Assembly (NCBI RefSeq): GCF_026914265.1 | Contig: NC_069133.1 | Location: forward strand, 9,989,937-10,053,936 | Source: Mya arenaria | Lineage: Eukaryota; Mollusca; Bivalvia; Myida; Myidae | Length of the DNA stretch: 64,000 nt | Direction: 5' to 3' | In this document: piece after piece, positions 3,601 through 63,900 of the stretch | Numbering within the stretch: position 1 is the first letter of the stretch | Layout: every line of letters starts with the position of its first letter | Program-made: the position numbers and the translations under genes | The notes under the pieces: generated by a model | What the model saw: only the letters and a program-made list of their open reading frames with translations | Database searches by the model: none | Told to the model about the DNA's origin: nothing

Positions 3601-6600
3601 TATTAGAGCCAGAGTTATGGGCCTTGCCTGATAATCAGTATAATAGTATAAAACACTAACCTAAAGCTGCTAAAGAAGCACAGAAATTGTACACCATCCA
3701 CTCCATTCAGTCCTTTTGCCAGTTATTTTTACAGTCCAATCAAAACACATGGATTCTAATCTTAAAATTAATACAACCCCAGGAAAGTTTCAGGGCTGTA
3801 AAATAATTTTTTGTTCTATATTCTTACTTAATCTGTGACACTCATTTATGACCTTACTAAATGCCTCTCATCCCCACATACAAAGTGCATCACATACCAG
3901 GAAGGTTTTCGGGCTGTAGAAGGGGTTTTGGTTGTTCTCCAGTGCTATCAGTTGCTGCACCAGCTCCTCCGCTAGAACCTGATATACAATAAAGCACTTA
4001 TCAATGTTTTGTCAACAGGGTTGGAGCAAATGGGCTCTGGAACTTCATAATCTTTTTCTTTGTTTTAGTATGCCATATTAACAACCTTACATACAATGTA
4101 GTACAACGCAATTTATATCCTGCAGTACATACAAAATGGAAATATATATCATTTTAACCATTGTTATGTATCATAAAATACTTATGTATATATAAAAAAG
4201 TTTTGAGTGATATCCCATGTTAAAAATGTATAGCAAACATGTTTTTATAGCACTTCATAATCTGTTTGATTCCAGACAGGCAGGCTGTGACAGAATCAGT
4301 AAGGTCATCAACAACAGTACAGACATGGTCTAATTTAAAAAAAAAAGTAAATGTCTTTAACAAACCTGGCCCCTTTTTTATCAAATACAAGGAATTTTGA
4401 CCAATGATCCTTGAGTGTGACCTTAACCTTTCACCTATAATACCGGGGTCTTGCACTCAGCACGCATATTCTTGTGTTGAACACTTGTAAGTTATTTTAA
4501 AAACCCCTAATGCATGGCCAAGTTACAGCCAGAAAAAGTGAACACTGGATTACCAAACACACTCATGCACACATGCACTGACGCACATACACAGAATTTG
4601 TCAGACAAATAGCTTATTCATGGGTCAAGCACCTTATTTATACATACCTTCTGAGGAGACTTTTTGTCAATGTGGGCTATCACAATTTTCTCATAGTGGT
4701 TGAATTTCTCCTGAGTAAGTCTGAAGGCCCGCCGCAGAAGTTCACAGAGCGTTTCTGTGGGAACAAGGGCGGAGTCTTCCTGTTCCTGATCCTCCACCCC
4801 GCTGTCATGCATGGATAACGGTGACAGACTGGTTACATGTTGCAGCGATAGACTGGTTTCCTTCCTGAGAAAGATAGAGAATCCCAGCTTTTGAGTATAA
4901 AAGTTGAAGCAAAATATTTAATAAGAAATAATAAAAATAAAAAATGTTCATTATTTGATAATAAACATAGTATGAAAGAACATGTATATTATAAACACAT
5001 GTATTAAAAGATAAAGGACCAAAAAATGTTGTTTTTGAAGCACCACTTTCGATAACTAATGTCCCCCCTTACACAAGAGCTTAGGTGATGAAAGGTAATA
5101 TTGAAGGTGTTAATATAATTAACATAATTAAGTGTTTTAAGGTAGTGTCTGGACAAATGCATAATAAAATAATGAACAAGGGGAATAAAATGCCCCAGAG
5201 TTATAAGTCTTGTAGGGTGCACAACTTCACATTGCCATTTATCTATGTAATTTTTTAAGGAGGTGAATGGGGCCAAAATTCAGCACAAAATCAATAGAAG
5301 GACAGCCCTGGCTTGGAACTGTGATGCAATCATTTATGTCTGATTGCTAAACTCCAATTGAATAAATGCTACATCATTTGACCAATAGTAAACAAAGTTC
5401 AGAGTATAGGCTGTTCCTTTTCCTAATGTGAATCAGGGTTTTGCAAATTTATGCCCGAGTCTTCATACTGCATCAACAAATGGAAAAATAAACTAACATG
5501 TCAACTAACTAACATGTCAAAACCTTTCATTGACAAATGATATTGACCAATATAAGCTGAAGCAAAGACATTTTATTTCAAATGGTTTTCAAGTTATGAT
5601 CAATACAAAATTACTTTTTCAAACATTCAAACAACTTCAAAAAGGGTTTCAGAGATAAGGAAAAAAAATCATTTTAAACACAACACCAACAAGTACAAAT
5701 AATAACAACACCAAAGCTGGTACAATACCTCAATTTCTTCTTTTAAAACAAATACAAGCTTGTTAGGTAAATAAATAGATGTACCTTTTTGCCATGATGC
5801 CTTTAAGCCCACCTATGTGGGTGTGGCTGGGGGCAGGGATGGGTGTGACCCCTGATGGGGGTTCAGGTGCCCCCAGGACAGGAAACGCTGCACACTTCAA
5901 GGCATTCTTAAACACCTGCAGATTAAGACAACACACCAATGTCCTTAAACAATGCATATAAATAAAAACAACACATAGATCTCATGTAAACACATACTAT
6001 AGAGCAGACAACAAAGGAAAACTTTTATTAATATATTTGAAATTGAAAGACAAATGATAATTAAAGTACTGGCAACAAAAAAGTGGTAAAAAATCATATT
6101 ATGAAATTTTTATTTTAAGGTTTATATTACATGTAAAGCCTTACTGGTACATGTGTATGTCAAAAGTATAAATGAACAGTAAAAAAACATGTTTGAACTA
6201 GTCCATCAAGACCTACTTTCTGTCAGTGGTGCACCTTGTTTCTGTTAGCGGTGCACCTTATTTCTGTCAGCAGTGCCCCTACTTTCAATCAGCAGTGCAC
6301 CTACTTTCTGTCACCAGTGCACCTACTTTCTGTCACCAGTGCACCTTCTTTCTGTCACCAGTGCACCTACTTTCTGTCACCAGTGCACCTTCTTTCTGTC
6401 ACCAGTGCACCTATTTTCTGTCACAAGTGCAACTACAATCTGTCACCAGTGCACCTCACCAGTGCACCTACTTTCTGTCACCAGTGCACCTACTTTCTGT
6501 CATCAGTGCACCTACTTTCTGTCATCAATGCACCTACTTTCTGTCAGCTATGCACCTACTTTCTGTCATCAGTGCACCTACTTTCTGTCACCAGTGCACC

Positions 6601-9600
6601 TTCTTTCTGTCACCAGTGCACCTATTTTCTGTCACAAGTGCAACTACAATCTGTCACCAGTGCACCTACTTTCTGTCATCAGTGCACCTACTTTCTGTCA
6701 TCAATGCACCTACTTTCTGTCAGCTATGCACCTACTTTCTGTCATAAGTGCACCTACTTTCTGTCACCAGTGCACCTACTTTCTGTCACCAGTGCACCTA
6801 CTTTCTGTCACAAGTGCAACTACAATCTGTCACCAGTGCACCTACTTTCTGTCATCAGTGCACCTACTTTCTGTCATCAGTGCACCTACTTTCTGTCAGC
6901 TATGCACCTACTTTCTGTCATAAGTGCACCTACTTTCTGTCACCAGTGTACCTACTTTGGGTCAACAGTGCACCTTCTTTCTGTGACCAGTGCACCTAGT
7001 TTCTGTCACCAGTGCACCTACTTTCTGTCACCAGTGCACCTACTTTCTGTCACCAGTGCACCTACTTTCTGTCACCAGTGCACCTACTTTCTGTCACCAG
7101 TGCACCTACTTTCTGTCACCAGTGCACCTACTTTCTGTCACCAGTGCACCTACTTTCTGTCACCAGTGCACCTACTTTCTGTCACCAGTGCACCTACTTT
7201 CTGTCACCAGTGCACCTTCTTTGTGTTACCAGTGCACCTACTTTCTGTCACCATTGCACCTTCTTTGTGTTATCAGTGCACCTACTTTCTGTCATCAGTG
7301 CACCTACTTTCTGTAAGCAGTGCACCTTCTTTCTGTCACCAGTGCACCTATTTTCTGTCACAAGTGCAACTACAATCTGTCACCAGTGCACCTACTTTCT
7401 GTCATCAGTGCACCTACTTTCTGTCATCAGTGCACCTACTTTCTGTCAGCTATGCATCTACTTTCTGTCATAAGTGCACCTAATTTCTGTCACCAGTGCA
7501 CCTTCTTTCTGTCATCAGTGCACCTACTTTCTGCCAACAGTGCACCTACTTTCTGCCAACAGTGCACCTTCATTCCAGCATCAGGGTATCACTCACCTGG
7601 AACTCTACTGCATCCAAGCCGATGACAGATTCATTCTGAGCCAGGTCAGCCTTCCCCATCGCCCCCTCCTCAATACCACTGTCACGGCCATCATTGCGAA
7701 CCTGGAAATGCACTCATACACATAACATACATAGTGTAGAGAAACAGCAAATAGAAAATAAACATACATATATTTGTCTCTAACTGAAAGAGCAAAAGAA
7801 CAGGCCTATCCAAAAAACTAAAACAATTATAACATGAATTTAAGTCAATAATTAATCACTCCATGTATCTCTTATGCAGTGAACTATCACAAGTTTTAGA
7901 TCTGCTTGAATGTATTCACAGGAAAAAAACAATTGAGTGTCCCAGATTTAAGCACACAGTACTTCCCTGTTGAGGGCTGATGCACGTCTTTAAGAACAAG
8001 AGCACCTAGTAGCAAACACCACACACTCGTCTGTTGTTGTTTTTTGTCAAAATAGGGGCACAACTGGGTAATTATTAATATCAGAGTTATGGGCTATCAG
8101 GCAACATTCATATCAGGTTTTATTTGAAATATCTTGTTTGTTTTTTATCCACGGCCAAAGTGCAAGATTTTGCATTTTTCTTTTGTCAAAAATGGGAATA
8201 ATTCAACAAGTATTTTAGTCAGAAATAGGGGCCTTGTTACACAAACCAGTATTGTCACTGGCAACATGTGTTCCAAGTTCTTCCTGTCTTTAAGTTATGG
8301 GCACAGTTAAGGATTTTGCACAATGCTGACGATGATGATGATGATGACAACGACAAACTAGTTTGAAAAATGATCAGCTAATAAAGCGTCCTCAGAAAAA
8401 AAGCATACATGTGATAATTTCTTGGGTCGATTCCGGGACACCCATCGTAATGTCAACGCACACTAGGGGGGTCCGGGGGCATGCCCCCCGGAAATTTTTT
8501 TAAATGGGGAACGTCTGTGGTGCATTCTATAGCATATCTGGGGCTATTTTAGTCGTTTTTAACGTCGGGAAAATGTACCTATTTTGACTGCCAAGACGTA
8601 TTTTTTACTTGACATGGTTGTTTTTTTTTCTGCATTTTCTTGAAAAAAATAAAACCACCAGATATTTTCCCAGGCTTTAAATGAAGTGCTAACCAGGAGG
8701 ATATGCAGTCTACTTTCGGTTTCATCAAAACAGGAAATAAACAACTATACGGGCACCTGTTTTCCCGCGCTTTTGAGAACATGCGTTACAAAATATTTAT
8801 TTTTTCATCACATTTAAAACGTTTGCAATTTATGACACACAATATTTTTCAGACGATAAAGAAGATTTTCCAGTCGATGAGCTTTTTTCCGTTTGGAGAT
8901 GCATATAATTTTGATAGAGACGTGTCAACAATCGGCTATATAAAGCGATCACGTGACTTACCATGGTCACGTGATTAAAGCACTCTATATAACCACCTGT
9001 AAACCCCATATCGTCAGTTTTATTTCGGCGTAAAAATACACACGATAGTTCGGAAAAAAGGTCAAAACACTAAAATTCCTTATGGACGCATATGTTGTTA
9101 AAAGTATAACGACGTATCGACTTTGAAATTTGAAAGGAATATGGGATGTTTTCCGTGTTTTAATTTTGTTTTTTTACTCATTTTGTCACTTTCTTTGAAC
9201 TTACCTTCATGCTCGTTTGTTGGTAAAATGTGTGAAAAATATCAATTCATCAATTAAAAGCTATCATTCATAAGACCAAACAAATCCATATGAAAACAAT
9301 GAATTTGTATACAAGAACCCTTCCCCACTCGTTAAGCACAACAATAGGCCGATAGATCAATTATCGGGTGATTGACGATGACCTCGACGACACACGTACC
9401 AATTAACGGATTAGTGTCAACATGTCCTGTGTTTTACGACCAGTGTCCCGGACAGGCAAAATAGCTGACTTACATTGGTAAAATTAAGATAATCGATTCC
9501 GATTCCGAGATTTATTTTTTTTTTTGGTTTTTTTTTTATGACTCCGGGACAAACATGCACCCTCCGTGACTCCGTGACAGAGATACGATTTCCGGGACAA

Positions 9601-12719: not shown

Positions 12720-13170
12720 TTATGACGATGAATAAAATGACGATTTTTGTCAGACATGACCCGTCGGAGTACAACTTGAAGAGTTTTTGAGGTATTGACT
12801 TCAATCTTCATATATAGATAGCTCTCATTGATGAGAAGTGCAGTGCACAGGAACCATAACGAAGGCTGTTGTATTTTTTTAGCTATTGATCTTTATAATC
12901 TACATACTTATTTTTTGCCTGTAGCTTAACTTGAAAAGTATTTGAGGTATTTACTTCAAATTTTATAGTGACAGATATATCTCACTAAGGAAAAGTTCAG
13001 TGCACGTGCACCAAATATCTGGGTGCAGTATGATTTTAATTATTGTCCATTGTTTTATTTTAATCTCTTTTTGTTGGGCAAAGTTTTACTGCTTTTAATT
13101 AGTCAGGGCATTTGCTCTTGTTGTATTATTTGTTATTTCCCGCCATAACCTTGATATATGTTTTTGTTTA
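12720..13170. repeat. Dispersed repeat with two related units
   Basis: 'aacttgaagagtttttgaggtattgacttcaa' (about 12772) returns as 'aacttgaaaagtatttgaggtatttacttcaaa' (about 12929). The blocks after each also correspond (gtgcagtgcacaggaacc / ttcagtgcacgtgcacc). A third piece (tttttgaggtattgacttcaa) follows the SINE at about 13427, so the SINE landed in this family. Confidence 0.5.
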
Positions 13171-13410
13171 GGTTGTCCGGTTAGCGCAGTGGTTAGCGCA
13201 CTCGTTTCTCACCTAGGCGACCCGGGTTCGATTCCCGGCCTGGGCGCATGTGAGTTTGGTTTGTGGTCACCAAGCTGGACAAGTGGGTTTCGTCCGGGGG
13301 TCTGGTTTCCCCCACAACACAAGACCACACTCTCGCATAACATTGTGCCAACGAGAGTGAATAATATAATGTTGTTAAAACTTGTTTCACAATCGTTGTA
13401 AATGAATATG
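13171..13410 (+). mobile_element. tRNA-derived SINE, copy 1
   Basis: The head is tRNA-like, with an A-box region 'tagcgcagtggttagcgc' and a B box 'gggttcgattcccgg'. A conserved body follows (tggtcaccaagctggacaag; cacaacacaagaccacactc; ccaacgagagtga) and an AT-rich tail. A near-identical copy is at 62763-63005 and a worn one at 43131-43345. The acceptor stem does not close and the shared 170-bp body rules out a working tRNA gene. Internal pol III promoter expected from the family. Confidence 0.9.
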
Positions 13411-14442
13411 TTTAAACTATATATGTTTTTGAGGTATTGACTTCAATTGTACAAAAGAAACATTATTTTGTGTTTGGTCAACTCAACTAGAAACTTTGTT
13501 ATGTTTTTAAAAGCTAAAAAGAAAACTGAATGCTTTATTTCCCTGATGTTATAGTCCTTATTTCTATCTAGTAGGTCCATTAACTTAATTGATGCCTTCT
13601 CATCGACCGTGATGGGGCATTCAATGATCAAAACATCACTCCCAGTGATACTTCTTATTACAGGAAGGTGGTGTAGTGGGGGTATTAACCACATCCAGTG
13701 ATAGCTCTAGCTCTCAACGGCAGGTTTTTCAACCTTCCTTAACTGAGATCGGATAAAAAAAACACCTGAACAATTGGTCATAATAATCTGATAATATGAT
13801 GCATTCTTTTCAATCTGTGGATCAATTCATTTTATCCGTAGCTTAGAAATTAAATTCTCTCCGAGGCGGCGGGATTAAAATCCATGGGATCGAAGGTGTC
13901 CGAGGCTTCAAAAATTCTTTGGAAAAGAATACGGCCAAGTTTATTTCCGGATGGCGATCTTACTGGGCTTGTGTTGTCCCATATATGCATCCACCGCACT
14001 CCCGCTTTGGGGAAAACGTGCAAGAAATAAACGTACTGGATATAAGCGGCTAGTGAATTGATAACATTGAGAGGGATTTTGAAATATTTTATTCCCCATT
14101 CAGATGGCAGCTGATAAAGAACTTAAATAGAAGATCATGATTTCCGTTTGTGAATGTAAGCAATTATGTACATGCACATGTATTATTCATATCATGCTCT
14201 TCAACAATGCATACCAAAATGTAAAACTATATATATCGTCAAGACATCACGACAGAAAATTGAGAGAAATGAATGTATTTAATGTATTAAAACAAAATAA
14301 ATAAAAAGAACACATATGGTTGGACCAGCCAAAACAAAATAAATAATTGTGCAACAATGACTGTATGAGCTGGATAGGTAAGTTTGGCAAGCAAACTGCA
14401 TTTACTACATTAAATGAAATAAATATAATAAATACAGGCGTA

Positions 14443-34577: not shown

Positions 34578-37500
34578 TTATCTCCCCTGCCCCTGTGGAG
34601 GGTACTGGACAGGCAAGGAGTATTCACTGTAGTCCCTGAAGTAGTCCATGGCTCTAACCTTGTAGTAACCAGTCACCAGGCTGTCTGGTGGCACTCCTAG
34701 AAAAAAACACACATAGTGCATACATGTTATATAAGTATAGGGAATCATACTTAAAAAAATACATTCCATCAAAATAGGTTATACAAACTGGGTTATGGGC
34801 TAAATCAAACTAAAACTCATCATCTAATATAATACAAGCCAAACTAGGGGAATAGGTATTCCAGGGGGGAGGACCACCAAACCCCTCTATTACATTAAAA
34901 CATTTTTGGGGGTTACGCCAGCAAGAACCACCATCTCTAGACTAAGGTCAAATTCTTTTTATACATTTTATCAATCAAGATTTGGATTTATGCCTTCATC
35001 AAGATAATTGAATCTTGAAACATTTAATCTGCACTCTGTAACAATGCGGATATCAATATAAATAAATGTTTTCAGAGAAGAGTCCCATACCTTGTTTAGG
35101 CTGTGGTGTGTACACGAGTGAGTTAGACATGCCAAGGTTGTAGCCCGGCTCAAGGGTCGTGAAGCGGGAACCATCAGGGGAAAATGCCACCTCATAGTTT
35201 AAAATACACCTGCAGAAAGTGAAACACAAAAGTAGGTTAAACAAAGTAGGTATGATAAAAACAATAAACATCAGAGCCAGAAATACTTAACCTAGAGATC
35301 AAGGACAATTGGTTATCTTTTTCTGTAATTTAATCAACCGAAGACTGTCTAATTCATTTTATTTATGGAACTCTCATTACTGGAATTTCTTCAGAGAATC
35401 AAATAAGTTGCCTGTCGGGACTGTCAGGAACCTCCAAAAATGTTTTAAATAAAGATCTACAAGACCATGTCCTTTGACCAAAAATCAACCATGAATGATG
35501 CACATACACCAAGACCAAGTTGTTCAAAACAAATTATTGATCAGAAGTGTAAGTGCCAATTATTTCACTACTAAATATCATCTTGACCTTTCACAAAAAA
35601 AATCAATAAGGCTCACTGTGCAATGACCAATATGTAAACCAAGTTTGAAGACTCGAAACAAATTGGATCAAAATAATTTGATAGCAAACAATAGAATTTA
35701 GTGTGACATGGACGATGACAGGGCAAGACAAAGTTATCCCTAAGTCTGCCATGCTTTGCAGGCGACACAAGAATCAGAATTTAACAGACATAAAGCAAAC
35801 ATAGACTTACCTAGAGTTCAGGCATTTGTCCGACCATGTGATTAAGATCTGGCCACTCGTGATGTTTCTTATATTAACATTATTGGGCTGAAACAAAAAC
35901 AAATTTGCAATTACTTGTACATTGCATGCACATAATACTATTACAGTTTGTTCATACTATATATACAGAAACTATTCCTACACAACTAAAAAAATATAAG
36001 TCCATTCCGTAAGATTGGTTGCTGTCTTTTTTTCTAAATGCCATATTACTCTTTACTTCAAAATTTATATTACTTGTAATAAGTATAATAGTAACAATGT
36101 GAGTTCATGGGGCCATTATTACCAACAATCTCAGGTCTGAGTTCATGGGGCCATGATTACCAACAATCTCAGGTCTGAGTTCATGGGGCCATTATTACCA
36201 ACAATCTCAGGTCTGAGTTCATGGGGCCATTATTACCAACAATCTCAGGTCTGAGTTCATGGGGCCATGATTACCAACAATCTCAGGTCTGAGTTCATGG
36301 GGCCATGATTACCAACAATCTCAGGTCTGAGTTCATGGGGCCATTATTACCAACAATCTCAGGTCTGAGTTCATGGGGCCATGATTACCAACAATCTCAA
36401 GTCTGAGTTCATGGGGCCATGATTACCAACAATCTCAGGTCTGAGTTCATGGGGCCATGATTACCAACAATCTCAGGTCTGAGTTCATGGGGCCATTATT
36501 ACCAACAATCTCAGGTCTGAGTTCATGGGGCCATTATTACCAACAATCTCAGGTCTGAGTTCATGGGGCCATTATTACCAACAATCTCAGGTCTGAGTTC
36601 ATGGGGCCATGATTACCAACAATCTCAGGTCTGAGTTCATGGGGCCATGATTACCAACAATCTCAGGTCTGAGTTCATGGGGCCATGATTACCAACAATC
36701 TCAGGTCTGAGTTCATGGGGCCATGATTACCAACAATCTCAGGTCTGAGTTCATGGGGCCATGATTACCAACAATCTCAGGTCTGAGTTCATGGGGCCAT
36801 GATTACCAACAATCTCAAGTCTGAGTTCATGGGGCCATGATTACCAACAATCTCAAGTCTGAGTTCATGGGGCCATTATTACCAACAATCTCAAGTCTGA
36901 GTTCATGGGGCCATGATTACCAACAATCTCAGGTCTGAGTTCATGGGGCCATGATTACCAACAATCTCAAGTCTGAGTTCATGGGGCCATGATTACCAAC
37001 AATCTCAAGTCTGAGTTCATGGGGCCATGATTACCAACAATCTCAGGTCTGAGTTCATGGGGCCATGATTACCAACAATCTCAGGTCTGAGTTCAGACTT
37101 ACGTGGCAGAACAACATACCCCTATATCTTCATCTCATTGGAGCTTACCTCCTACTTAGGTACTGATGATAAAAGTTGCTGATTGTTTTAGTTACTATTT
37201 GAAATAGAGACTTATGTTTGAGAAAGAAATGGAATAGAGAAGAGGTTGTGAAATTTGATAAAAGTGCTGTTCGAGTCTAGACTCAGACTTGAGACTGTTC
37301 GTAATCACTGCCCCTGGGACTGCGAAAATTATTTCAATTTAAGTAAGTGAGTGAGAACCCTAAATCTGACCATTAAAACATGTATGCATACCTGGTCAGG
37401 AGGAAGTGAAGCCCTGGAGCAGACATGTACCAGTATCACAGCCGGTTCTTCCAGGAAAAATTTGCCTATGTACTGGTACCCAGCCTTCACCGAGGTGCTA

Positions 37501-40500: not shown

Positions 40501-43500
40501 AAACAAATCTATGTAATTTCTTGAACTTAAATGTTACATTTAAATGTACATATTAAGATGAAAGTAAAAGAAAAGTAATGCATGTACATTCGAAATGGTT
40601 TATGAAGACAGGAAGAAATTCTTACACGTAACAGTTGCCTGGACTTCAGTTTCTCCAAGGAGAGACAGGAAACCCATCACCGAGTAGACTGGTTTCCTAA
40701 AGAAGTGTGTATGGGGTGGACTAGTTGTGTTTATCTGGAACCGTGCCAACAATGTTCGCTGGGTGAACTGGTGAGGGTACCAGCTGAGGAACGCGTTATC
40801 ATTACTAAGGAGATGGTAGTTCTTAATTTTGGGATTCTTGTTGGAGATGAAGGCTTTTTGGTGCTGAACAATTACCTGCAATGGATCTTCTATCATCAAT
40901 TACAAGTAAAATCATTAAGACCTACATATATGTATTAAGGTCGATTTCAATAAAGATCTTAAATGATTTTCGTCATGTATATTAGGAATTATCTTTGTGT
41001 TTTTCATTATTTTCCTACATATTTGGGTGAACTGAACTTTAGCAGGATTAAAAAAAACACCTAGTAAGAAGTTGAAGAAATAAAGAAAATCTTTTCTTTT
41101 AACAATTATAAGCATATACCAATTTAAGAATATTGATTTATAACTAAAATCCTTTAATGAAACAGGCCCCTGGACTGTAATAAAACTTGATATGTGATAA
41201 AAGATTAAATATGAATTTTACAAAATTCAGTAGCATTCCAAAGAGCGTAAACAATAAGGTAACTAACATAAACTTGTTTATGTTTTCTTGGTTATCATAT
41301 CATACCTTAGCAACCATAGACGCGTAAGTAGAGTCTGCCCTCCATTCCTCATCCCGGGACCAACCAACAAGAGGGTCGGCCTCGCTGAAAGTTAACATCA
41401 GCTTACAGATACGTATCACCTGAAGATCATGCAACATCTTGATTTTGTTGAGCTGTTACTTAAGAAATAAGTTTATTGTAACTTTGAATGTCATAGGTTA
41501 CTGAAACTCACTGAATTGAAAACTATAAATATATAAATCAAATCAAAATGTCATATGCAATACACCATTGCACTAGCCTGCAAAATGAAGTGAAGGTAAG
41601 ATGAATATGTGTAGTGAACAATAATGGCTATTTAAATTTTCTAGTTCTGCCATTACAATTTAATGAGGGATATATCTTCTTTGTAGTTAACTCAAAATCT
41701 TTCATAAAAAGCCACAATCAAAAAAAGTGTGTATGGAATTTCCCTTCCCCCATTAAGATGTGTTGGTTGGTAGGTAGATAGGTTTTGTCTTTTTACTTCC
41801 TAACCCCTTAAATATGTATGAAAAATGAAAGAAAAATTATATGAACACAGGAGAGGAAAAAAATCTTATTTCTGTGAATTGGTCAGGAAATGCCAAAATA
41901 CTATTTATTGTGGACTAACCAACCAATTTATATCTTCCAAACAAAGGAAGTTCTGATAGGTAGGGGATGAGAAGAAGTTAATTTTCATTCAACCAATTTC
42001 AATTCTATGGGCGAACAGCGAAAGAACCAGGGCTCCAATTCGATACAGATCCTACGACTGAAGATAGTAAACATCCAGGCATTTCTCAGTTTTTGGCTTT
42101 TACCGCATTTCAATAAATAAAGAATGTATGGGGCAGAATGGTTTTTCTATTAATGAAATGTGGTTTATTTTCATAAGGACATTTATTGCATAGATTCTGC
42201 TCATAAATCAACAAGTGTCCTTGAGCACTCTTAAGCAGTGTTTAGTTTACGACTAATGTAACCGGGCAATCGATATGTAAAAAGCGCACTTATTCTGTCT
42301 CACTCAAGAGCTAGCTTTTATAGCAACGCAGTGTCCGCCTGCAGAACGTGAGGTTGTGGGTTCGTACCCCATCAGGTGCACATAGCAATTTGTGCAGTAT
42401 GTTACATTTGGCGCCCAATGTGGGGCCTGTGTTGCACGATATGCCTCAAGGTCATTGCAAATTGGCCCTTGTCTCCGAAATTCGAGGATGAATTTCAATA
42501 TAGAGGGGGAATGTATAACCGGGTATTCGATATGTATATAGTGGCACTTATACTGTCTCGCTATAGTGACACGGTAGTGTGTCCGCCTCTTGAGAAGTTC
42601 AATATAGAGGGGGAATGTGTAACCGGGTGTTCGATATGTATATAGTGGCACTTATACCGTCTCGCTATAGTGACACGGTAGAGTGTCCGCCTGTAGAGTT
42701 AGAGGTCATGGGTTTGAACCCAAACAGGTGCACATAGCAATTTTTGCAGTATGTTACACTATCATATCTCATTAAAACAGGGCCTATGTCCTTAGCCTTC
42801 ATTTGTTCACCATACCTGCATGTATTTCTTACTGACTTACATGTAACAGATTTGAATGTTAATTCTTACTCATTATAGAAGGGTTTGTCTGCCAGGGTCG
42901 GGTACTTAGTGGCTATTTGTGACATCAGCGTAATCTCATCATCCATAATCTTCTTTGAAAATCCACTGCCCTGATAGAAATAAAGTAGCATGAGTTCTCA
43001 ATTTGTGTCTATAATCAGAAGCACACGTAGGAAATGCTACAAAAAAGAAGAGTATGATGTTTTATGAATCTATTGTTCATTGTGTTATCCTCACATAGAT
43101 ATAATATATAAATTTAGGATTTTTTCTAAGGTGTTCTGGTAAGCGCAGGGGTGAGCTGCTTCTCAACAGGGTCTTCCAGGTTAAAATCCCGGCCTTTAAG
43201 TTTGATAAATGGTCACCAAGCTGGACAAGTGGGTTTCCTCAGGGTGTTTTGATTGAACCAATAACAAAGACCACAATCTTATGTAACTTGCCTATGAGCA
43301 TTGTAAATATATTGTTACAATAACTTGTTTCACAGTCTGAATAAACTTTTCTTTCTTGTTTACCTTTCTATGGAAGGACAGGAAATCAATCCTGACGCCA
43401 GTTTCCCCAGTGAAGAAGTTGGTTCCCAGCACTACATGGTCGAGCAGGGCATCGGAGTAGTCTGTCCTCCGGCACCCATCCCCCGGTCCACCAAGGATCA

Positions 43501-46500
43501 GGGACTCCGAAGCCGCCTTCAGTCCCTCTGAGCAGGCATCATAATAGTTTAGAAAACCTGTAAATTGTAATAAATCCTGTTTGATGAGCATTTATTGTTT
43601 AAACTTAAGGCAAATGCTGCTATTTTATACCTTTATAATAGTTCTATAACACTGACTACAAATAAAGCCGATTTTAAAGGGACTGTACACCAGATTGGCA
43701 CCAAAAAAAGTTTTTTTCTGTAACGAATCTCAGGACAATTATTTAATAAAATGTTTTACTCTTTGATATCATAATTGTAAAAAAAATAACCAAAAAGCAA
43801 AGAAAATTGAGCGAAGACTGGGTTCGAACCGGTGTCGCCAAAATTGCAGTCCAGTTTTGTATCCACTGTGCTACAAAGGCTTACCCTGAACAGTTGGAAT
43901 ATTTAAGCTATATACCTAACTTGGTCATATCACGTGATAACATCGAGTAGCCAATCACACATAAGGAATGAATTCTACTAGGTAGACATACCTAGTAATC
44001 TTTTTAATGGGAAAATATGAAAAAACTGCAAAAATAAATTAATTGTAAACTATGTGGTACTTCACTTAGTAAGTTTCAATGCATTGTTAACATCGATACC
44101 AAGTCTATGTCAGTTTTCGACAATTTTCTTTCTTTTCGCTATTTCATCATACGGAGTACAGCCCCTTTAAAGTGCATCCCCTTTATCAGAAGTATAAATA
44201 ATCGGAAGTGAGATATTCAGGAACAAAAAATAAAAAAAATTAACATATAGAATTACTTCTAATTACATGTCATTAAATCTAACACGGACAAGAAACAAAT
44301 CATAATCAGGAATGTTACAAACAACTTACCTTGTACAGTCATGTTGACATTATCAAAGTCATGGCAGTCTGGCTCATTCCAGGTTTCAAAGTTCCACTCA
44401 GACACAAACCCTGCACCATACTCATCTGAAAGTGACATACATGCATGTTAGGATAATCAATATCCTTAACATGAACTAAATAGTGACTGGAAATCATACC
44501 TTATTGCATGTTCTATTACAACTTCCTACAAAAGTTAAATGAAGCTGGACAAATTTAATTTAAGCAGCATTATAATACAGTTAAAAAAGACCCCTTTGAT
44601 TTTGGGGGAATTTTATTCCTAATCCTGTGCATTCTAAATTGGGGAGAATTCAGATTGTAGGAAAATGGAAAATCATGCCAAATATAGATGTTTTAACTCT
44701 GTTTTGGGTCTGTTTAAATAAAAAAAAAATAAGTGTTATATTATTTAAAAAAAAACCCTATCATTTTTAATGTTTAATTCTAAATATATTCATGTTGATC
44801 ATATGTTTGTTTAACTTTAACTTATAATATCATTTAACGTGAAGCATGTATATTTTAAGTTACTTTAATAAATATTTTGAATCTTGAATCTTGATAAGAT
44901 CTTGTTAACAAGAGATGTTTGTCAAACATTATGCCTCCCTGAGCGCCATGTTGTCAGGATTATATGGACAATTGAATGAAATATGCATGGACCGAAATGA
45001 CAGCTGGTTTGTCACTGACATTGGATGCCGTTGAGGGAGTTTTAAGATTATGACCATTCAAAGTGTGAGGAAAGAGTGTGTTATGACCATGACGTTTAAC
45101 CTCAAAATCCATCATCAGCTGGTCACAAAAAATCTAAATGTCAAGTTTGAGGGCCATGGATGCAGGCATTGACAAGTTATCACACAGACAATATTTTTTC
45201 GTTCAAGGTCACTGTGACCGTGACCTTTGACCCGATAAACCCTAAAATCATAAGGGGTCATCTACAGATTAGATGCAACATCTAAAGTGTGACCTTGACC
45301 TTTGGCCCGATGACCCCCAAAAAACAATAGGGGTCCTTTACTGGTCAGGCCCAACGTCCAAGTCAAGTATGGGGGCCATGGGCGCAGGCATTGTCGAGTA
45401 ATCACTCTGACAACCTTTTACCATTCAAGGTCACTGTGAACTTGACCTTTGGCCGAATGACCCTTAAAAACAATAGGGGTCGTCTACTGGTCAGGCCCAA
45501 CCTCCATGTCAAGTATGAGGGCTAAGGGTGCAGGCATTGTCGAGTTATCACACCGACAACCTTTTACCATTCAAGATCACTTGACCTTGACCTTTGGCCC
45601 GATGACCCCTAAAAACAATAGGGGTCATCTACTGGTCAGGCCCAACAGACATGTCAAGTATGAGGGCTATGGGTGCAGGCATTGTCGAGTTATCACACGA
45701 ACAACATTTTACCATTCAAGATCACTGTTACCTTTACCTTTTGCCCAATGACCCCCAAAAACAATAGGGGTCATCTACTGGTCAGGCCCAACTTCCATAT
45801 CGAGTTTGATGACCATAGGTCTAGGCATTGTTGAGTTATCACTCGGGCAAGCTTTAAAATTATTTTACCATTAAAGGTCACTGTGACCTTGACCTTTGAC
45901 CCGGTGAGCCCTAAAATCAATAGGGGTCATCTACTGGTCAGGCCCAACCTTCATGTCAAGTTTGATGACCATGTATCCAGGAATTGTTGAGTTATCACTC
46001 GGACAAGCTTTGGTCTACCGACGGACCGACTGACCTACCGACCGAAATGTGCAAAGCAATATACCCCTCTTCTTTGAAGGGGGCATAATAATATAGAATA
46101 TATCCCCACATATGATCATAGCTCTCTATACCAAGCATACCAATATATCGTGAAGCCACCTGAGTCACTAGGTCTTTCCAGAGGTACACAGTTTCTTTAT
46201 CCTCAAAGTTTCTGAACAATCCCGATGGGTTCCCCATCAGCTCAAATCCTGGCTTCAGTCCGTTATTGTACAGCAGGTCGATCACATTGTCCAATAAAGT
46301 AAAGTTATAGACAGGAGCCTTGAATGGCTCATGGCTGTAAAAAAAACCACATTTATTTATACTAAATTGTATGTTAAAGACAGTTATCAACATTATTATA
46401 TATCACAGAACCATTCAATTGCGCAATAACCTAATGTAATGAATGAATGTGAGACAATTTTTTAAGTTTTAATAATTCCATTCCCTTCTATTTCACTTTA

Positions 46501-54936: not shown

Positions 54937-56009
54937 AGGGGCCGCACTCCGTATGATGAAATAGCGAGAAAAAAAGAAAATTGTCGAAAACTGACATAAA
55001 CTTGGTATCGATGTGTACAATGCATTTAAACTTACTAACTGAAGTACCACACAGTTTACAATTAATTTATTTTTCGCAGTTCTTTTCCTATTAAAAAGAT
55101 TATAAGTATCTTCCATGGCCGAGAGTGTAAGATATGTTCATTCCGACCCGAGCGTAGGGTGTTTTGCGGAAACGAGGTTTATTGAGTTTCCGCAAAACAC
55201 CCTGCGCGAGGGTCGGGATGAACCTATCATACACGAGCGGCTATGGTAGATGCTTTTTCTCCCACCTCAGTTAAACAAAATTAATTAAAAATGTATTTTT
55301 TGCTGGAATTCTTTTGTGCTTAGCGAAAATAATTGCGTATGGATATGCGATAGCATGTGGTTGTCATGGATATACGCGCAGTGATCCAGTTAATGTTAAT
55401 AGTCAAATCGGTCTTTTTAAATAGTTCTAAGGAGAATGAAGCATTATTTTTTGAATGGTGCCTGAAAACTGTTTTATGGTGACATCTGAAGTGAGAAATA
55501 ATAAATTAGCGTTCTAAATATTACCATAAGACAAGATTTCCTTGATGCTACTGACGACAGTCTTCAACAAGGGAGGTAATTACAATGTGGTAAAAGGAGT
55601 TCCATACGGACATTTTATCTTCGCCCGTGGGCAAGATAAGAATATCTAGCATGGTTAAATTATTGGATCTACTTATCTGAGATGGGAGAAAGGTATGTCT
55701 ACTTAAAAGAATTCATTCCTTATGCGTGATTGGCTAGTCGATGTTATCACATGATATTACCAAGTTAGGTCTATAGCTTAAATATTCCATCCGGTTAGGG
55801 TAAGCCTCCGTAGTACAGTGGGTACAACACTGGCTTGCAATATTGGAGACACCGGTTTGAACCCGGTGACAGACTCGATTTTTTTTTTAACATTTTGGTA
55901 TTTTTTACAATTATAATATCAAAGACAAAAACATTTTATTAAATGATTGTCCAGAGATTCGTTACAGAAAAAAAAAACTTTTTTGGTGCCAATCTGGTGT
56001 ATAGTCCCT
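54937..56009. mobile_element. TTAA TIR element with tRNA-like module, copy 2, split by an insertion
   Basis: Reverse orientation relative to 43678-44166: TTAA, AGGGGCCGCACTCCGTATGA at the left; ggtgtatagtccct, TTAA at the right. Outer parts align with copy 1 (cttggtatcgatgt; agaattcattcctta; catcacatga region; ttggtgccaatctggtgta). The tRNA-like module reads taagcctccgtagtacagtg ... gacaccggtttgaacccggt at about 55800-55870. About 590 bp absent from copy 1 are inserted at 55107-55692. Confidence 0.88.
55107..55252. mobile_element. Nested hairpin element
   Basis: Two arms of about 67 bp: tatcttccatggccgagagt ... gtgttttgcggaaac, and gtttccgcaaaacaccctgc ... gcggctatggtagatg, separated by a 12-bp loop (55175-55186 approximately). 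Inserted in 54937-56009. Directly beyond it a second pair, tttctcccacctcag (55255) and ctgagatgggagaaa (about 55677), encloses the rest of the inserted block, so two insertions may be nested here. Confidence 0.8.
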
Positions 56010-56621
56010 TTAAAACAAAATATAAGATATGGTATCGCTATTGATAAGACCATAGATTGGTACCCGGAGTGTTTCTTTCTAACCGATGTTATATTATTCT
56101 GTAGGAAGGTTTTCCAGTTTCGATAATTCGAGAATAACGTATAAGACTCTTTTCATTTAACTTCAATCGATGTATAAAGTTACTCATAAAATTTAAGTCG
56201 ACTTATTAATTAGCACATACAATAATTGTTCTTCACAGCATTTGTAAATGAATATTGTAAAGAGGCCTATCATATTTAAATTATTTCAGCCATGTGATCA
56301 TAGTAAATTTGAACGGTTGGATAGGAATCAGAATTTCTCTTGTTACCAAGTCTGCATTAAGAAACTATCCATTTATGCTGTTTTAAAAATGCTGGCCCCA
56401 GTTGCTTGGCAACATAAGTCAAATAATAGCCATTTTCTCCTTCATATCTTATTCTTAGAAAAAATATGTTTCAGGACCATAAATGTCCTTTAGTGCAATG
56501 AAGTGGAATGCCTCGTTATGTTTCTATCACCATGATGCATACCAACGTTGACCTCCTTGTCATCCAACGGTAGAACTCTCTAATGGCAATATTATTATTC
56601 GTCAATACATCGTTAAACAAT

Positions 56622-58181
56622 GAAGAGTATATTATACAAGGTATACATATACAGAAATGTGATCCTTAAATTATGTTGAAGAGTATATAATACAAGGTAT
56701 ACCTATACAGAAATGTGATCCTTAAATTATGTTGAAGAGTATACAATACAAGGTATACCCATTCAGAAATGTGATCCTTAAATTATGTTGAAGAGTATAC
56801 AATACAAGGTATACCCATACAGAAATGTGATCCTTAAATTATGTTGAAGAGTATACAATACAAGGTATACCCATACAGAAATGTGATCCTTAAATTATGT
56901 TGAAGAGAATACTATACAAGGTATACCCATTCAGAAATGTGGTCCTTAAATTATGTTGAAGAGTATACAATACAAGGTATACCCATTCAGAAATGTGGTC
57001 CTTAAATTATGTTGAAGAGTATACTATACAAGGTATACCCATTCAGAAATGTGATCCTTAAATTATGTTGAAGAGAATACTATACAAGGTATACCTATTC
57101 AGAAATGTGATCCTTAAATTATGTTGAAGAGTATACAATACAAGGTATACCCATTCAGAAATGTGGTCCTTAAATTATGTTGAAGAGTATACAATACAAG
57201 GTATACCCATACAGAAATGTGATCCTTAAATTATGTTGAAGAGAATACTATACAAGGTATACCCATACAGAAATGTGATCCTTAAATTATGTTGAAGAGT
57301 ATACAATACAAGGTATACCCATTCAGAAATGTAATCCTTAAATTATGTTGAAGAGTATACAATACAAGGTATACCCATTCAGAAATGTGATCCTTAAATT
57401 ATGTTGAAGAGAATACTATACAAGGTATACCCATACAGAAATGTGATCCTTAAATTATGTTGAAGAGTATACTATACAAGGTATACCTATACAGAAATGT
57501 GATCCTTAAATTATGTTGAAGAGTATACAATACAAGGTATACCCATACAGAAATGTGGTCCTTAAATTATGTTGAAGAGTATACAATACAAGGTATACCC
57601 ATTCAGAAATGTGATCCTTAAATTATGTTGAAGAGTATACAATACAAGGTATACCCATTCAGAAATGTGATCCTTAAATTATGTTGAAGAGTATACTATA
57701 CAAGGTAAACCTATACAGAAATGTGGTCCTTAAATTATGTTGAAGAGTATACAATACAAGGTATACCCATACAGAAATGTGGTCCTTAAATTATGTTGAA
57801 GAGTATACTATACAAGGTATACCCATTCAGAAATGTGATCCTTTAATTATGTTGAAGAGTATACTATACAAGGTATACCCATTCAGAAATGTGATCCTTA
57901 AATTATGTTGAAGAGTATACTATACAAGGTATACCTATACAGAAATGTGATCCTTAAATTATGTTGAAGAGTATACTATACAAGGTATACCTATACAGAA
58001 ATGTGATCCTTTAATTATGTTAAAGAGTATACTATACAAGGTATACCCATACAGAAATGTGGTCCTTAAATTATGTTGAAGAGTATACAATACAAGGTTT
58101 ACCCATTCAGAAATGTGGTCCTTTAATTATGTTGAAGAGTATACAATACAAGGTTTACCCATTCAGAAATGTGGTCCTTAA
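56622..58181. repeat. 56-bp satellite, about 28 copies
   Basis: Unit gaagagtatacaatacaagg plus tatacccatacagaaatgtg plus atccttaaattatgtt, with a small set of recurring variants (ctatac/caatac; gtgatcc/gtggtcc; gagaata). One and a half further units follow the TTAA element at 58477-58552. Non-coding. Confidence 0.97.
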
Positions 58182-58476
58182 AGGCCTAGTTTAAGCCTTC
58201 TATAAGTGCCCCCCCCCCCCCCCTCCCCAAATCGGTGTTTAGTACACAACCTCTGTGTATTGATCTGAATCTACTTGCCTTGATCCCTCTTATCAGGTCT
58301 CAAATCTGAGTATCCTGCAGGGCAGTTTTGGAGGTTTCATTATAATATTGGACCCTAAATGGCCCTAAGGCAATAAACCAATATACAGGAAATTGGCCCC
58401 TACTGTGACACCAGTGCAATTAGCAGAAGATGCACAGCAGGGGGTTATCATGCCTAACATTCCTTAAACTAGGCCT
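58182..58476. mobile_element. TTAA TIR element (AGGCCTAGTTTAAG family), copy 2, inside the satellite
   Basis: Perfect 14-bp ends AGGCCTAGTTTAAG / CTTAAACTAGGCCT, with TTAA at 58178-58181 and 58477-58480. The intact satellite unit reads ccTTAAattatg, so the duplication of exactly TTAA is visible. Interior matches 47410-47653. No transposase. Confidence 0.95.
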
Positions 58477-59140: not shown

Positions 59141-59280
59141 GGTTTAAAGGCTACATTTAAAGGAAGTTGTTTAAAGAGCAGTCAAAACATTTTGACGATG
59201 TATTGAAACTATTCTTATTGAAAAAAATGTGTGAATTGCATTGATCGGGAAATTATTGGTAGTTGTTCCTCAAAGAAAAC

Positions 59281-60786
59281 ATGGACGTCATATACATATT
59301 ACCAACGGACGGATGTACATACGTTCTGGTTGTTTTACTGCTGATATTAATAACGATACTCTATCCCCGACGACGAAAAGGGGTTCCTGACGGTCCAATA
59401 TTGTTCCCGGTGCTGGGAAATTTACCATCGTTAGCAAGCAAAGATCCCCTGAAGAGTTTCACGGACTTATGGAAAAAATACGGGGACGTGTACGGAATTT
59501 ACATCGGTGGGGAACTGACGGTATTTATCAACGGGTATGACGCCATACATGACGCATTGGTTAAAAGGGGAAATGTATTCTCGAAACGGCCGCGAGGGGA
59601 TTTTCATCAAATCACGTTCAAAGACCCGGGGATAGTTTTTGCAAACGGCGCAATATGGAAACAACACCGCCAGTTTTCCCAGGCGGCTCTGAACGAGTTC
59701 GGATATGGATGGACAGAGAAAACTTTAGAAGAACGCATTAATGATGAGTTGTATCATTTCCTTAACACCATCGAGTCGTATGACGAACCCTTTGATATTA
59801 GTGGACTCATGACCTTAAGCGTTGCCAATGTGATCGCGGGTATTCTTTTCGGAAAGCGTTGCGAGTACACCGACGAGCGGTTTGTGGCTTGTATCCACAG
59901 CGTGGGAGAGGCCGCAAAGCTATTTAGCCACTCTAGCGTCCTCATGAGCGTCTTCCCCTGGCTGATTTACATTCCTGGGGATTTCCTGGGCCTCGGAAAG
60001 ATCGAGAAAATCAGAGAAAAACCGAAGCAGTTTCTACAACATGTATTTTCATGGCATTCCGAATTTTGTAAAGGCAAGGAAACACGTGACATATTGGGGC
60101 TGTACAGGCAGGAGATAGACAAAGGATGCAATGGTCAGTCTTCTTTGTTCAACGAAACAACAATGCGAGCTTTAATGGGCGAATTATTAAGCGCCGGTTC
60201 CGAAACTACAGCCACGTGTATCATTTGGATCATATTATACCTCATATTAAACCCGGACTTGCAGACGCGACTTCAAAACAACATCGACGAGGTAGTAGGA
60301 ATGGACCGTCGGCCGTCCTTGAATGACCGCCAGCACCTGCCGTTGGTGGAAGCGGTCATTCTGGAGGGGTTGCGGATTAGACCGATCGCACCGCTCTCTG
60401 TGCCGCACGCCGTCCACGAGGACGTCAACTTTAGGGGGTACCTGATCCCAGCGGAAACCACTGTGCTAGTCAACCTTCACTCCGTACTTAAGGATCCGCA
60501 GACATTTCCGGAGCCAGACGTGTTCAACCCGGAGAGATTTTTAGACGAGACTGGACACGTAATCATTCCGAAACAGTTCATACCGTTTTCAACAGGTCGC
60601 CGCTCTTGTCTAGGGGAGTCTTTAGCTCGAATGGAATTGTTCCTTTGTGTGACGTCACTCTTGCAAAGGTTCACTATGACGTCACCGTTAGGTTCTCCAC
60701 CTCCGAGCACGGAAGGCGTTCTTGGCATGACATTCTGTCCCAAACCTTTCAAAATGGTTGCGATCCCAAGAACATGTGATAAATAG
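59281..60786 (+). CDS. Cytochrome P450, CYP2-like, intronless
   Basis: Heme-thiolate monooxygenase of 501 residues, normal length for a microsomal P450. The frame extends 18 nt further 5', but only to a TTG; the true start is ATG 59281 (A at -3). Layout: membrane anchor about residues 13-29 (TYVLVVLLLILITILYP), basic stop RRRKG, proline hinge PDGPILFPVLGN, C-helix WKQHR 126-130, I-helix AGSETT 305-310, ExxR Glu362-Arg365, NPERF 416-420, and heme loop FSTGRRSCLG 436-445 with ligand Cys443. All essential residues are present. It acts on the cytosolic face of the ER with NADPH-P450 reductase; substrate (xenobiotic, fatty acid or steroid) cannot be told. CYP2-clan genes usually have introns, so the single exon suggests a retrocopy or an intronless lineage. 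Its own TATA box and poly(A) signal argue that it works. Confidence 0.95.
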   Translation: MDVIYILPTDGCTYVLVVLLLILITILYPRRRKGVPDGPILFPVLGNLPSLASKDPLKSFTDLWKKYGDVYGIYIGGELTVFINGYDAIHDALVKRGNVFSKRPRGDFHQITFKDPGIVFANGAIWKQHRQFSQAALNEFGYGWTEKTLEERINDELYHFLNTIESYDEPFDISGLMTLSVANVIAGILFGKRCEYTDERFVACIHSVGEAAKLFSHSSVLMSVFPWLIYIPGDFLGLGKIEKIREKPKQFLQHVFSWHSEFCKGKETRDILGLYRQEIDKGCNGQSSLFNETTMRALMGELLSAGSETTATCIIWIILYLILNPDLQTRLQNNIDEVVGMDRRPSLNDRQHLPLVEAVILEGLRIRPIAPLSVPHAVHEDVNFRGYLIPAETTVLVNLHSVLKDPQTFPEPDVFNPERFLDETGHVIIPKQFIPFSTGRRSCLGESLARMELFLCVTSLLQRFTMTSPLGSPPPSTEGVLGMTFCPKPFKMVAIPRTCDK

Positions 60787-61861: not shown

Positions 61862-62762
61862 AGTCAAGTCAAGTAATATTTATTTATAAAGACGGGTTTA
61901 CAACATACAGAACACAAGCTCTGAAGAGCTTTTAAAGCCGATTTGATTAACCCAGAAATTAAGGATTGCCTATATGGAATTTCATTGGCTGCAAATGTGG
62001 GTTGTATTCTTTATACACTTTATTATCTATGTACCCATGGGGCATTTTGCAAAAAGAAATTCGCTGGCAATGCATTTTTCTTGCATGTTGTGTTTAACTT
62101 TTCAGCAGTAAAATAAATAACATCTGGATATGATATAAGCTGATAAGAAAATTGTTTCATGTAAACAACGAGATGAAATTTCTTGTCGGGGATCCTATTC
62201 TAGTTTTAAGGTACATCTGTCAGGTTGATAATATTAGGTGAAATACATAGAAAAATAGCCGGTGGACGTTCCTGGACCCGACATTATCGTTAAAGTCCTC
62301 AATAGACAATGCAAGAAATGTACAGTGAACTAACCAGAAAGTATCCGATCCTGTAGAATGCACTTTAATATGACATCAAATATTTTTATTTATTTTTCTA
62401 AAAAACCAAGGCACAGGATTATATATTTAGTATGAAAAAACATATTAGAAAAAAATCTTACAATGCAAAAGCAATACCAATACATCATTAACTAAATAAG
62501 AACTGGCCGCGGTCATGGGGTCGTTTGTTAATTGGATTAATTTCAAAATAAATAATATACCATGGGTCGTGAAATGCTGTGTGGGGTTCCTTTGGTTGGA
62601 CTTCAGCCTCGATCGTACTAATATGAACGACCTGGGACGGTTGACCTCTAGTTTTCCTATCTGTAATATATCGTTTAAATGATTCTCATGTTACTGATTC
62701 CAATGTCTTGATGTAGGAACAATTAAATACAAATAATCGTAATTGTTCCCCAAATCGTTTTT
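61862..62762. other. Non-coding DNA before the third SINE
   Basis: 'caagtcaagtaatatttatttataaa' at the start is a phrase seen in many invertebrate repeats. Otherwise no frame or array was recognised. Confidence 0.4.
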
Positions 62763-63005
62763 GGTTGTCCGATAAGCGCAGTGGTTAGCGCACTCGGTTC
62801 TCACCTAGGCGACCCGGGTTCGATTCCCGGCTCGGGCGCATGTGAGTTTGGTTGGTGGTCACCAAGCCGGACAATTAGGTTTCCTCCGGGTTCTCCGGTT
62901 TTCCCCACAACACAAGACTACACTCTCGCGTAAAATCGTGCCAACGAGAGTGATTAATATAATGTTGTAATAACTTGTTTCACAGTCGTTGTAAAATAAA
63001 TATGT
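62763..63005 (+). mobile_element. tRNA-derived SINE, copy 2
   Basis: ggttgtccgataagcgcagt, 'gggttcgattcccggctc', tggtggtcaccaagccggac, cacaacacaagactacactc, ccaacgagagtgattaatat and 'gtttcacagtcgttgtaaaa' align along the full length with 13171-13410. Good A and B boxes. AT-rich tail aaataaatatgtttaaact. Confidence 0.92.
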
Positions 63006-63900
63006 TTAAACTAAATCTTTTAGAGCGATCATGGCAAACAGTGTCGTGGTTATGTAACAGCAGTTGATATATCATAATCCGCAGTTAAGCGTATAACTAC
63101 TTTGAGTAAGTTGCGAATGGAAACATGTGTTTTACATTAGTTTCAGTTTTAGTTTATTGACAATATCAGCAAATACACGCCTTTAGCAAAATACAAACAT
63201 CATGAAATAAACAAAGATTGCCACACTAATATAAGTAACAAAGAACAGAATTTTCTGACGAAATGAAAATATATACAGCTACACAAAATAAGTAAATGTC
63301 ACACACAATGCAATAAATAAACTGTAATTATTAAAAAAGCAATGACAATCAATTCGATTAGACGTAGGTTCCTCGATTTGATAGAAATTTTGAGAGAATC
63401 CTAACAGTTTGACTGTCAGTACTAACAAATATAACTGTCGGTTTGAATAATGCGGCGCTAGAAACAAAACGAACAATGACTAATAATTGACTAAAGGTTT
63501 TCTAAATGTCATTTTAAAAGACAACAATTTAAATTTTGGATCACTAGCGGGCAGCTTAGGAAATAAACAATATATATTTTTTTTTAATTTACCCATTTTT
63601 TCGTGGATAGGTGGGGTAAATATTTTAATACAATATAAAGAGCACCCCCCCCCCCCCAGCACCCCCCCCGCCCAAATAAATCAAATAAGTACGCGCAGTA
63701 GGTACCAATCATTGAGTTCGCAGCTTGACCTGGGGGAAGACCACTGTATCACATTTAGAAAATATATTTCGATGCAAGGGCAGTCAGATTTTAACAAACA
63801 GTAACGTAGGGTACCAGTCTAGGTGTCCGTGTGATGTGAGACGATTTGTCTAACACGATTAGTATAGTACAATAGGGTAGTGGCCAAAATGTAAACAAAT
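63006..63900. other. Non-coding DNA with a poly(C) tract
   Basis: A run of C at about 63646-63670 (cccccccccccccagcaccc) is the only marked feature. Opposing frames at 63480-63804 cross it and are not credible. Confidence 0.4.

Follow-up and report, generated by a model that had tools for sequence, protein, structure and literature searches.

The window, that is the whole 64-kb stretch of Mya arenaria DNA analysed here, contains a P450 (CYP2-like) frame of 507 aa in one piece (59263-60786), with heterodont clam relatives at 60-70%; the closest named relatives in other species are found in Dreissena (67%), Mactra (62%) and Mercenaria (61%). The CYP2-like protein P0030 is labelled as belonging to a Candidatus Thiodiazotropha MAG, and is probably a contamination of this MAG by its clam host. 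Long minisatellites of 22, 38 and 56 bp are located at 6211-7569, 36100-37095 and 56621-58182; the repeats of the 22-bp one leave 428 codons in an open frame. A SINE-like repeat with a tRNA-like head is present in three related copies, at 13167-13422, 62759-63016 and 43120-43337, and ARAGORN matches are found only in the first two (at 13175 and 62767). Another repeat, present in two copies (85%) with strong box A/B matches at 43672-43993 (minus strand) and 55691-56015 (plus strand), is perhaps a different tRNA-like SINE.

About 360 bp upstream of the SINE-like copy 43120-43337 lies a miniature LTR element (TRIM), whose features are the following:

42253-42256, no strand: left target-site duplication (TSD), CTAA
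42257-42758: decayed TRIM as a whole, in the order LTR, PBS, non-coding interior, purine tract, truncated repeat, purine tract, LTR
42257-42406, plus strand: 5' LTR (LTR1), TGTAAC...GTTACA, 150 bp, minus 5 bases in the box A region
42321-42331, plus strand: box A-like site of LTR1, damaged; the A+B pair has 3 mismatches
42359-42369, plus strand: box B-like site of LTR1 (coordinates read off the sequence)
42407-42513, plus strand: internal domain, 107 bp, non-coding
42409-42426, plus strand: primer-binding site (PBS), complementary to a tRNA-Lys type 3' end at 17/18 positions
42477-42496, plus strand: palindrome, GAAATTCG-AGGA-CGAATTTC-like, upstream of the purine tract; its 19-nt core is common to the second Helenus family (see below)
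42500-42513, plus strand: first polypurine tract (PPT), at the position found in other genome copies
42514-42588, plus strand: truncated LTR copy, first 75 bases, from a local 104-bp tandem duplication
42604-42617, plus strand: second polypurine tract, duplicated
42618-42758, plus strand: 3' LTR (LTR3), 141 bp, with a 15-nt deletion immediately upstream of box A
42668-42678, plus strand: box A-like site of LTR3; the A+B pair has 2 mismatches
42711-42721, plus strand: box B-like site of LTR3 (coordinates read off the sequence)
42759-42762, no strand: right TSD, CTAT

The first-pass annotation had described two terminal repeats at this place, a primer site two bases past the first, a purine tract ahead of each later repeat and almost no interior, without proteins. 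All these features are present. In pairwise alignment, LTR1 and LTR3 share 114 of the 133 bases that align, the alignment having 25 gap columns, and reach a score of 166 whereas the maximum among 478 random window pairs is 64.5. The PBS matches 17 of the 18 bases of the complement of what we take to be the 3' end of animal tRNA-Lys(CTT), and the two TSDs agree at 3 of 4 bases. This confirms that the stretch is a decayed TRIM and that the initial observation was real.

The third, truncated repeat had been attributed to recombination between copies. Arrays of the form LTR(n)-internal(n-1), described for Cassandra and biv-TRIM, would be a parallel, and tandem forms do exist in the clam (L128 and the family-2 triples, see below). 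This attribution is contradicted by the 15-nt deletion that repeats 2 and 3 have in common: its junction is absent from all 62 LTRs of 31 other genome copies, 61 of which retain the deleted stretch (with up to 3 substitutions). The deletion being private to the window copy, the third repeat results from a later local duplication inside this copy. Furthermore, repeat 2 and its purine tract form one half of the 104-bp tandem duplication, so that recombination between separate copies appears very improbable.

The repeats had also been said to hold a block spaced like a tRNA gene, and the box A/B pairs of the window copy do exceed chance: among 2000 Markov sequences, 0.05% equal the pair of LTR3 and 0.95% that of LTR1. 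Pairs with 3 mismatches also occur elsewhere in the window, where the SINE-like repeats score better. No intact tRNA is found in the window copy by ARAGORN, and the Rfam tRNA model gives 17.2 bits for a cut-off of 29.

Family 1 and its probable primers in the clam genome

A genome search scored 40 of 563 candidate places (75 matches), including the window's own locus. Allowing up to 2 substitutions in the end motifs, 31 of these 40 places carry a complete LTR-interior-LTR structure; the other nine are incomplete under this definition and include the window copy, because its extra repeat lies outside the model. The complete copies consist of two LTRs of about 154 bp around a non-coding interior (107 bp in 29 of the 31), with a PBS two bases past the 5' LTR and a purine tract ahead of the 3' LTR.

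The TSDs of the complete copies agree at all four positions in 22 cases, at three in 6 and at one in 3, for 0.12 perfect 4-bp duplications expected by chance. Three pairs with identical 5' flanks are likely segmental duplicates, L024 and L030 have a 3' flank in common, and perfect TSDs are found in 19 of 27 copies after removal of one member of each pair. An LTR-only search (40 of 758 candidates scored, 44 matches) led to 16 single-LTR sites. Ten of them lack an interior and five of these ten, flanked by perfect 4-bp TSDs, are solo LTRs; the other six include fragments and hybrids. In this set, L126 and L127 have damaged PBS regions. Within copies, the LTRs share 85.8-100% identity, two copies being at 100% (156/156 and 154/154). 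Some insertions thus have identical LTRs, which shows that family 1 jumped recently. Copies that never had paired repeats, or that had variable tails of the SINE type, would have spoken against a TRIM; the genome copies examined do include paired repeats and show no such tails.

The promoter boxes of family 1 are better kept than its cloverleaf, which is degenerate: 39 of the 62 LTRs retain the box B core GGTTCGAAC without a mismatch (21/31 at the 5' end, 18/31 at the 3' end) while tRNA detection fails. This core is exact in 9 of 10 genome LTRs displayed side by side and in neither of the two window LTRs. The tRNA folding sought on the advice of the first-pass annotation falls below the thresholds: ARAGORN predicts no tRNA across the 40 places, and Rfam at E up to 1 detects one in only 1 of 20 copies tested, at 27.5 bits, under the cut-off of 29. 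A functional tRNA gene in family 1 is thereby ruled out.

The PBSs of the 31 complete copies belong to three types, AACGAGGGAC (17 copies), AACGTGGGGC (8 copies) and AACAAGGGAC (6 copies), to one of which 21 copies correspond exactly. With few variants, the first ten bases are common to all types, which diverge after that. A pattern for the T-arm and acceptor end of a tRNA, built from the PBS variants and left free at the positions separating the types, has 93 exact matches in the genome, and none when reversed. By hand count, 48 of them are complementary to PBSs of the first type, 37 to those of the second and 5 to those of the third, while 3 have other sequences. Two chromosomes carry 78 of these 93 tRNA-type 3' ends, mostly in regular arrays, with a spacing of about 1.25 kb on C2 and, for many of those at C6:74371538-74390759 and C6:77041741-77057973 (genome G000), of about 705 bp. 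One site of the first type in the C6 arrays, 82 bases without a 5' end, reads by eye as tRNA-Lys(TTT) with a short insert where tRNA introns usually lie; ARAGORN makes no call on this partial sequence. The second type corresponds to what is presumably animal tRNA-Lys(CTT).

The three PBS variants are therefore complementary to three candidate tRNA 3'-end types of the clam genome. As the PBS is recopied from the primer tRNA at every cycle of retrotransposition, family 1 has probably used all three types of primer. On a tree of 28 copies (the near-duplicates L013, L032 and L035 being dropped, L024 and L030 both kept), the PBS types need at least 9 changes, and a single origin is seen in none of 200 bootstrap trees; this tree is weak, with 2 of 25 branches well supported. 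Values as low for the three types together are found in 17 of 200 shuffles. One PBS type is clustered on the tree: it needs 6 changes, and 9 of 500 shuffles give a value as low as this. These distributions suggest a repeated change of primer within family 1.

A second family and hybrid insertions

The insertion L134, flanked by TTAC/TTAC, begins with a 5' LTR unrelated to family 1 (1715-1856, 142 bp, TGTCAC...GTGACA); after it come TT, a PBS and then sequence of family 1, both in the interior (94.4%) and in the 3' LTR (98.7%). A search with this 142-bp LTR (40 of 536 candidates scored) lists 41 matches that are 98-100% identical, 39 of which span exactly 142 bases; six pairs at 272 bp and two triples are found among them. 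One copy, L136, has two identical 142-bp LTRs, a 130-bp interior and the TSD AAAA/AAAA. ARAGORN identifies a tRNA-Ser(TGA) in both of its LTRs, which reach 47.2 bits in Rfam. These LTRs belong to a second, younger family (family 2). Its two triples (G000 C5:5781109-5781798 and C6:10921873-10922558) are nearly identical tandem LTR(3)-interior(2) structures with 272-bp spacing. At C17:1614691-1710411, pairs of family-2 LTRs about 1,320 bp apart recur every ~31 kb, in a segmental array that perhaps belongs to a longer element or consists of nested copies.

Comparison of one copy per family indicates that the interiors have in common their 21 initial bases, which comprise spacer and PBS, as well as the 19-nt palindrome that precedes the PPT, the rest being at chance level. 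The LTRs of the same copies have no match longer than 13 bases, and a tRNA-like stretch of 48 bases is 73-75% identical between families when aligned in the loci. Genome-wide, 91 sites have the palindrome and none has its reversed form; copies of both families are among these sites, and the palindrome resembles a motif located near the PPT of plant chromoviruses. Judging from titles and the beginnings of abstracts, a literature text search on its core returned no apparently related paper.

The reverse mix is found in L132, where a family-1 LTR and a PBS precede positions 3-101 of a family-2 interior (94.9%), with a Med18-like gene downstream. Its 3' LTR was not found at the locus; a further tRNA-headed repeat (706-745) lies behind the hybrid element. 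Normally, reverse transcription copies the two LTRs of an insertion from one template. If two RNAs were co-packaged, the plus-strand strong-stop DNA of one family could jump onto the minus strand of the other; this intermolecular transfer, by pairing at the PBS, would produce LTR(A)-PBS-interior(B)-LTR(B) between TSDs. The TSD-flanked insertion L134 and the fragment L132 suggest, on thin evidence, that LTRs were exchanged in this way at the PBS in the course of reverse transcription. The alternative for a hybrid of the L134 type is gene conversion after insertion. By extension, and as a tentative idea to which we give somewhat less than even credence, small pol III-type TRIMs may swap whole LTRs via the PBS, so that tRNA-type promoters would spread between TRIM lineages in this way and not only by insertion of SINEs into LTRs, the PBS being rewritten by the priming molecule of tRNA-Lys type.

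Other odd insertions could also reflect reverse transcription. L131 consists of an LTR, two bases, the 18-nt PBS and the first 30 LTR bases in inverted orientation, between AGTG/AGTG; it could be a plus-strand strong-stop DNA that made a fold-back copy of its own start and was then integrated. In L128, two LTRs are linked by the dinucleotide TT, which otherwise separates LTR from PBS; a two-LTR junction would be expected to look like this. In L133 (855-900) and L135 (around 1930-1960, read on the reverse strand), a family-1 LTR and interior abut other sequence, either at the purine tract or immediately upstream of the PBS; neither a second LTR nor a TSD could be made out convincingly at these loci, which are perhaps further LTR exchanges.

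Classification, proposed life cycle and meaning

The genome copies, with their paired LTRs, PBS, purine tract, 4-bp TSDs and solo LTRs, support the initial proposal that this is an animal TRIM whose LTR contains a promoter block of tRNA type. Elements of this kind are already known: they were described by Kojima in 2024 as Helenus, from other animals, fungi and a plant (PMC10886601), and no other paper on Helenus TRIM retrotransposons was found in the literature from 2023 on. Helenus elements are TRIMs with a tRNA-derived LTR block carrying box A and box B, a PBS and a PPT; their animal families have 4-bp TSDs, those of bivalves use tRNA-Lys among other primers, and the total length of Helenus elements is 311-1263 bp (PMC10886601). 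The Mya element shows each of the Helenus traits that were compared, an assignment made by description: a tRNA-derived sequence with box A/B in the LTR (tRNA-grade in family 2, sub-threshold as a tRNA in family 1), a 4-bp TSD in family 1 and in one family-2 copy, and a PBS complementary to a tRNA 3' end, tRNA-Lys included. However, the bivalves in the text and Table 1 of the Helenus paper all belong to Pteriomorphia (PMC10886601) whereas Mya is a heterodont; in the available text of that paper, the word "Heterodonta" does not occur and "mya" is an abbreviation for million years. The same text reports a change of primer between families but, as far as it goes, neither within-family primer variation on three tRNA types, nor LTR hybrids of two families, nor a shared palindrome before the PPT.

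Other TRIMs are comparable in part. Cassandra, from plants, has a pol III promoter inside its LTR and forms tandem arrays (PMC7215508). However, its block is derived from 5S rRNA and its transcription is demonstrated, whereas that of the Mya element is predicted. Ajax, from nemerteans, is an animal TRIM with a small-RNA-gene block in its LTR, but this block is 5S-derived and the TSD has 5 bp. biv-TRIM (PMC6934838) is a TRIM of bivalves, heterodonts included, with solo and tandem forms, but with repeats of 202-218 bp, an inner domain of 77-80 bp, no clear PBS and another purine tract. Identity with biv-TRIM was rejected since, besides these different lengths, its conserved inner 14-mer has no match (up to 3 mismatches) in 42257-42758.

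Considered as a whole, the stretch is very probably a Helenus-type TRIM copy of Mya arenaria that is old and dead, and the cycle of such elements would depend on pol III and on a helper acting in trans. Box A and box B of the 5' LTR would recruit pol III and give a short RNA extending into the 3' LTR. Acting in trans, a Gypsy-type element would provide Gag, reverse transcriptase and integrase; the synthesis would be primed by one of the three tRNA-Lys type tRNAs, and the integrase would generate the 4-bp duplication.

The weakest step is the end of the transcript. Directly before box A, with one base between in most rows, TTTT is found in both LTRs of 27 of the 31 copies; in the 3' LTR, it could end the transcript and leave a minimal terminal repeat, comparable to the short R of Cassandra. 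For Cassandra, PMC10886601 reports transcripts that are initiated in the block of the 5' LTR and terminated in that of the 3' LTR, so that a repeat of 18 bp is left. L016 and L034 keep TTTT in one LTR. Against a minimal R, L010 and L023 have TTTC in both LTRs (which are identical in L023), and the sole TTTT of family 2 lies past the tRNA-like block, not before it, which would cut the transcript short or require read-through; this idea is thus not general. In yeast, T4 terminates pol III transcription weakly, according to PMC9278858. A hairpin that would reinforce it was sought before TTTT, where folding is no better than in shuffles. The depletion of TTTT elsewhere in family 1 is not significant (0.65 expected per copy, present in 3 of 31 copies).

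As for the helper, the LTR retrotransposon Steamer is present in the same host, with a 5-bp TSD (PMC10663159). The TSD of the present families being of 4 bp, Steamer is an unlikely source of integrase. A search for an autonomous partner found none: in L130, L131 and L132, three stretches behind family-1 LTRs, ten of the longer frames (at least about 100 aa; the longer ones for L130) contain no retroelement domain in Pfam, only Med18 being found, in L132. Both palindrome sites checked for an autonomous partner turned out to be family-1 copies again. LTR, PBS and tRNA strings had no match in viral and prokaryote contigs, which carries little weight as host-type DNA lies outside that set.

Two other readings have to be weighed against this Helenus-type, pol III-dependent one. 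The element could be a conventional TRIM transcribed by pol II, whose tRNA-like block would be a relic or a passenger such as a SINE insertion. The lack of tRNA-grade folding in family 1 and the TATA-like strings read by eye upstream of the block are in favour of this possibility, but it has to face box A/B pairs that exceed chance in the window copy, the absence of any canonical poly(A) signal (AATAAA or ATTAAA) from the 62 LTRs of family 1 and, in the unrelated LTRs of family 2, an intact tRNA-like block at a similar position. Transcription by pol II is thus rather unlikely. That a tRNA-derived SINE was mistaken for an LTR element has practically no probability left: the tRNA-like block, the short length, the hundreds of candidate places and the SINE-like repeats nearby in the window would suit a SINE, but such an origin is rejected because the copies have paired LTRs with TG...CA ends, a PBS, a purine tract, TSDs of a fixed 4 bp, solo forms and no variable 3' tail.

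The Helenus-type TRIMs of Mya arenaria extend the tRNA-type TRIMs to a heterodont bivalve, which implies that their origin in bivalves is older than Pteriomorphia or that there were several origins or moves. The hybrid and strong-stop-like insertions seem to preserve individual steps of reverse transcription, like fossils. Furthermore, the clam harbours two families with recent insertions, one of them represented by near-identical copies, and as the species is extant and open to sampling, the use of pol III, the identity of the helper and the choice of primer become testable.
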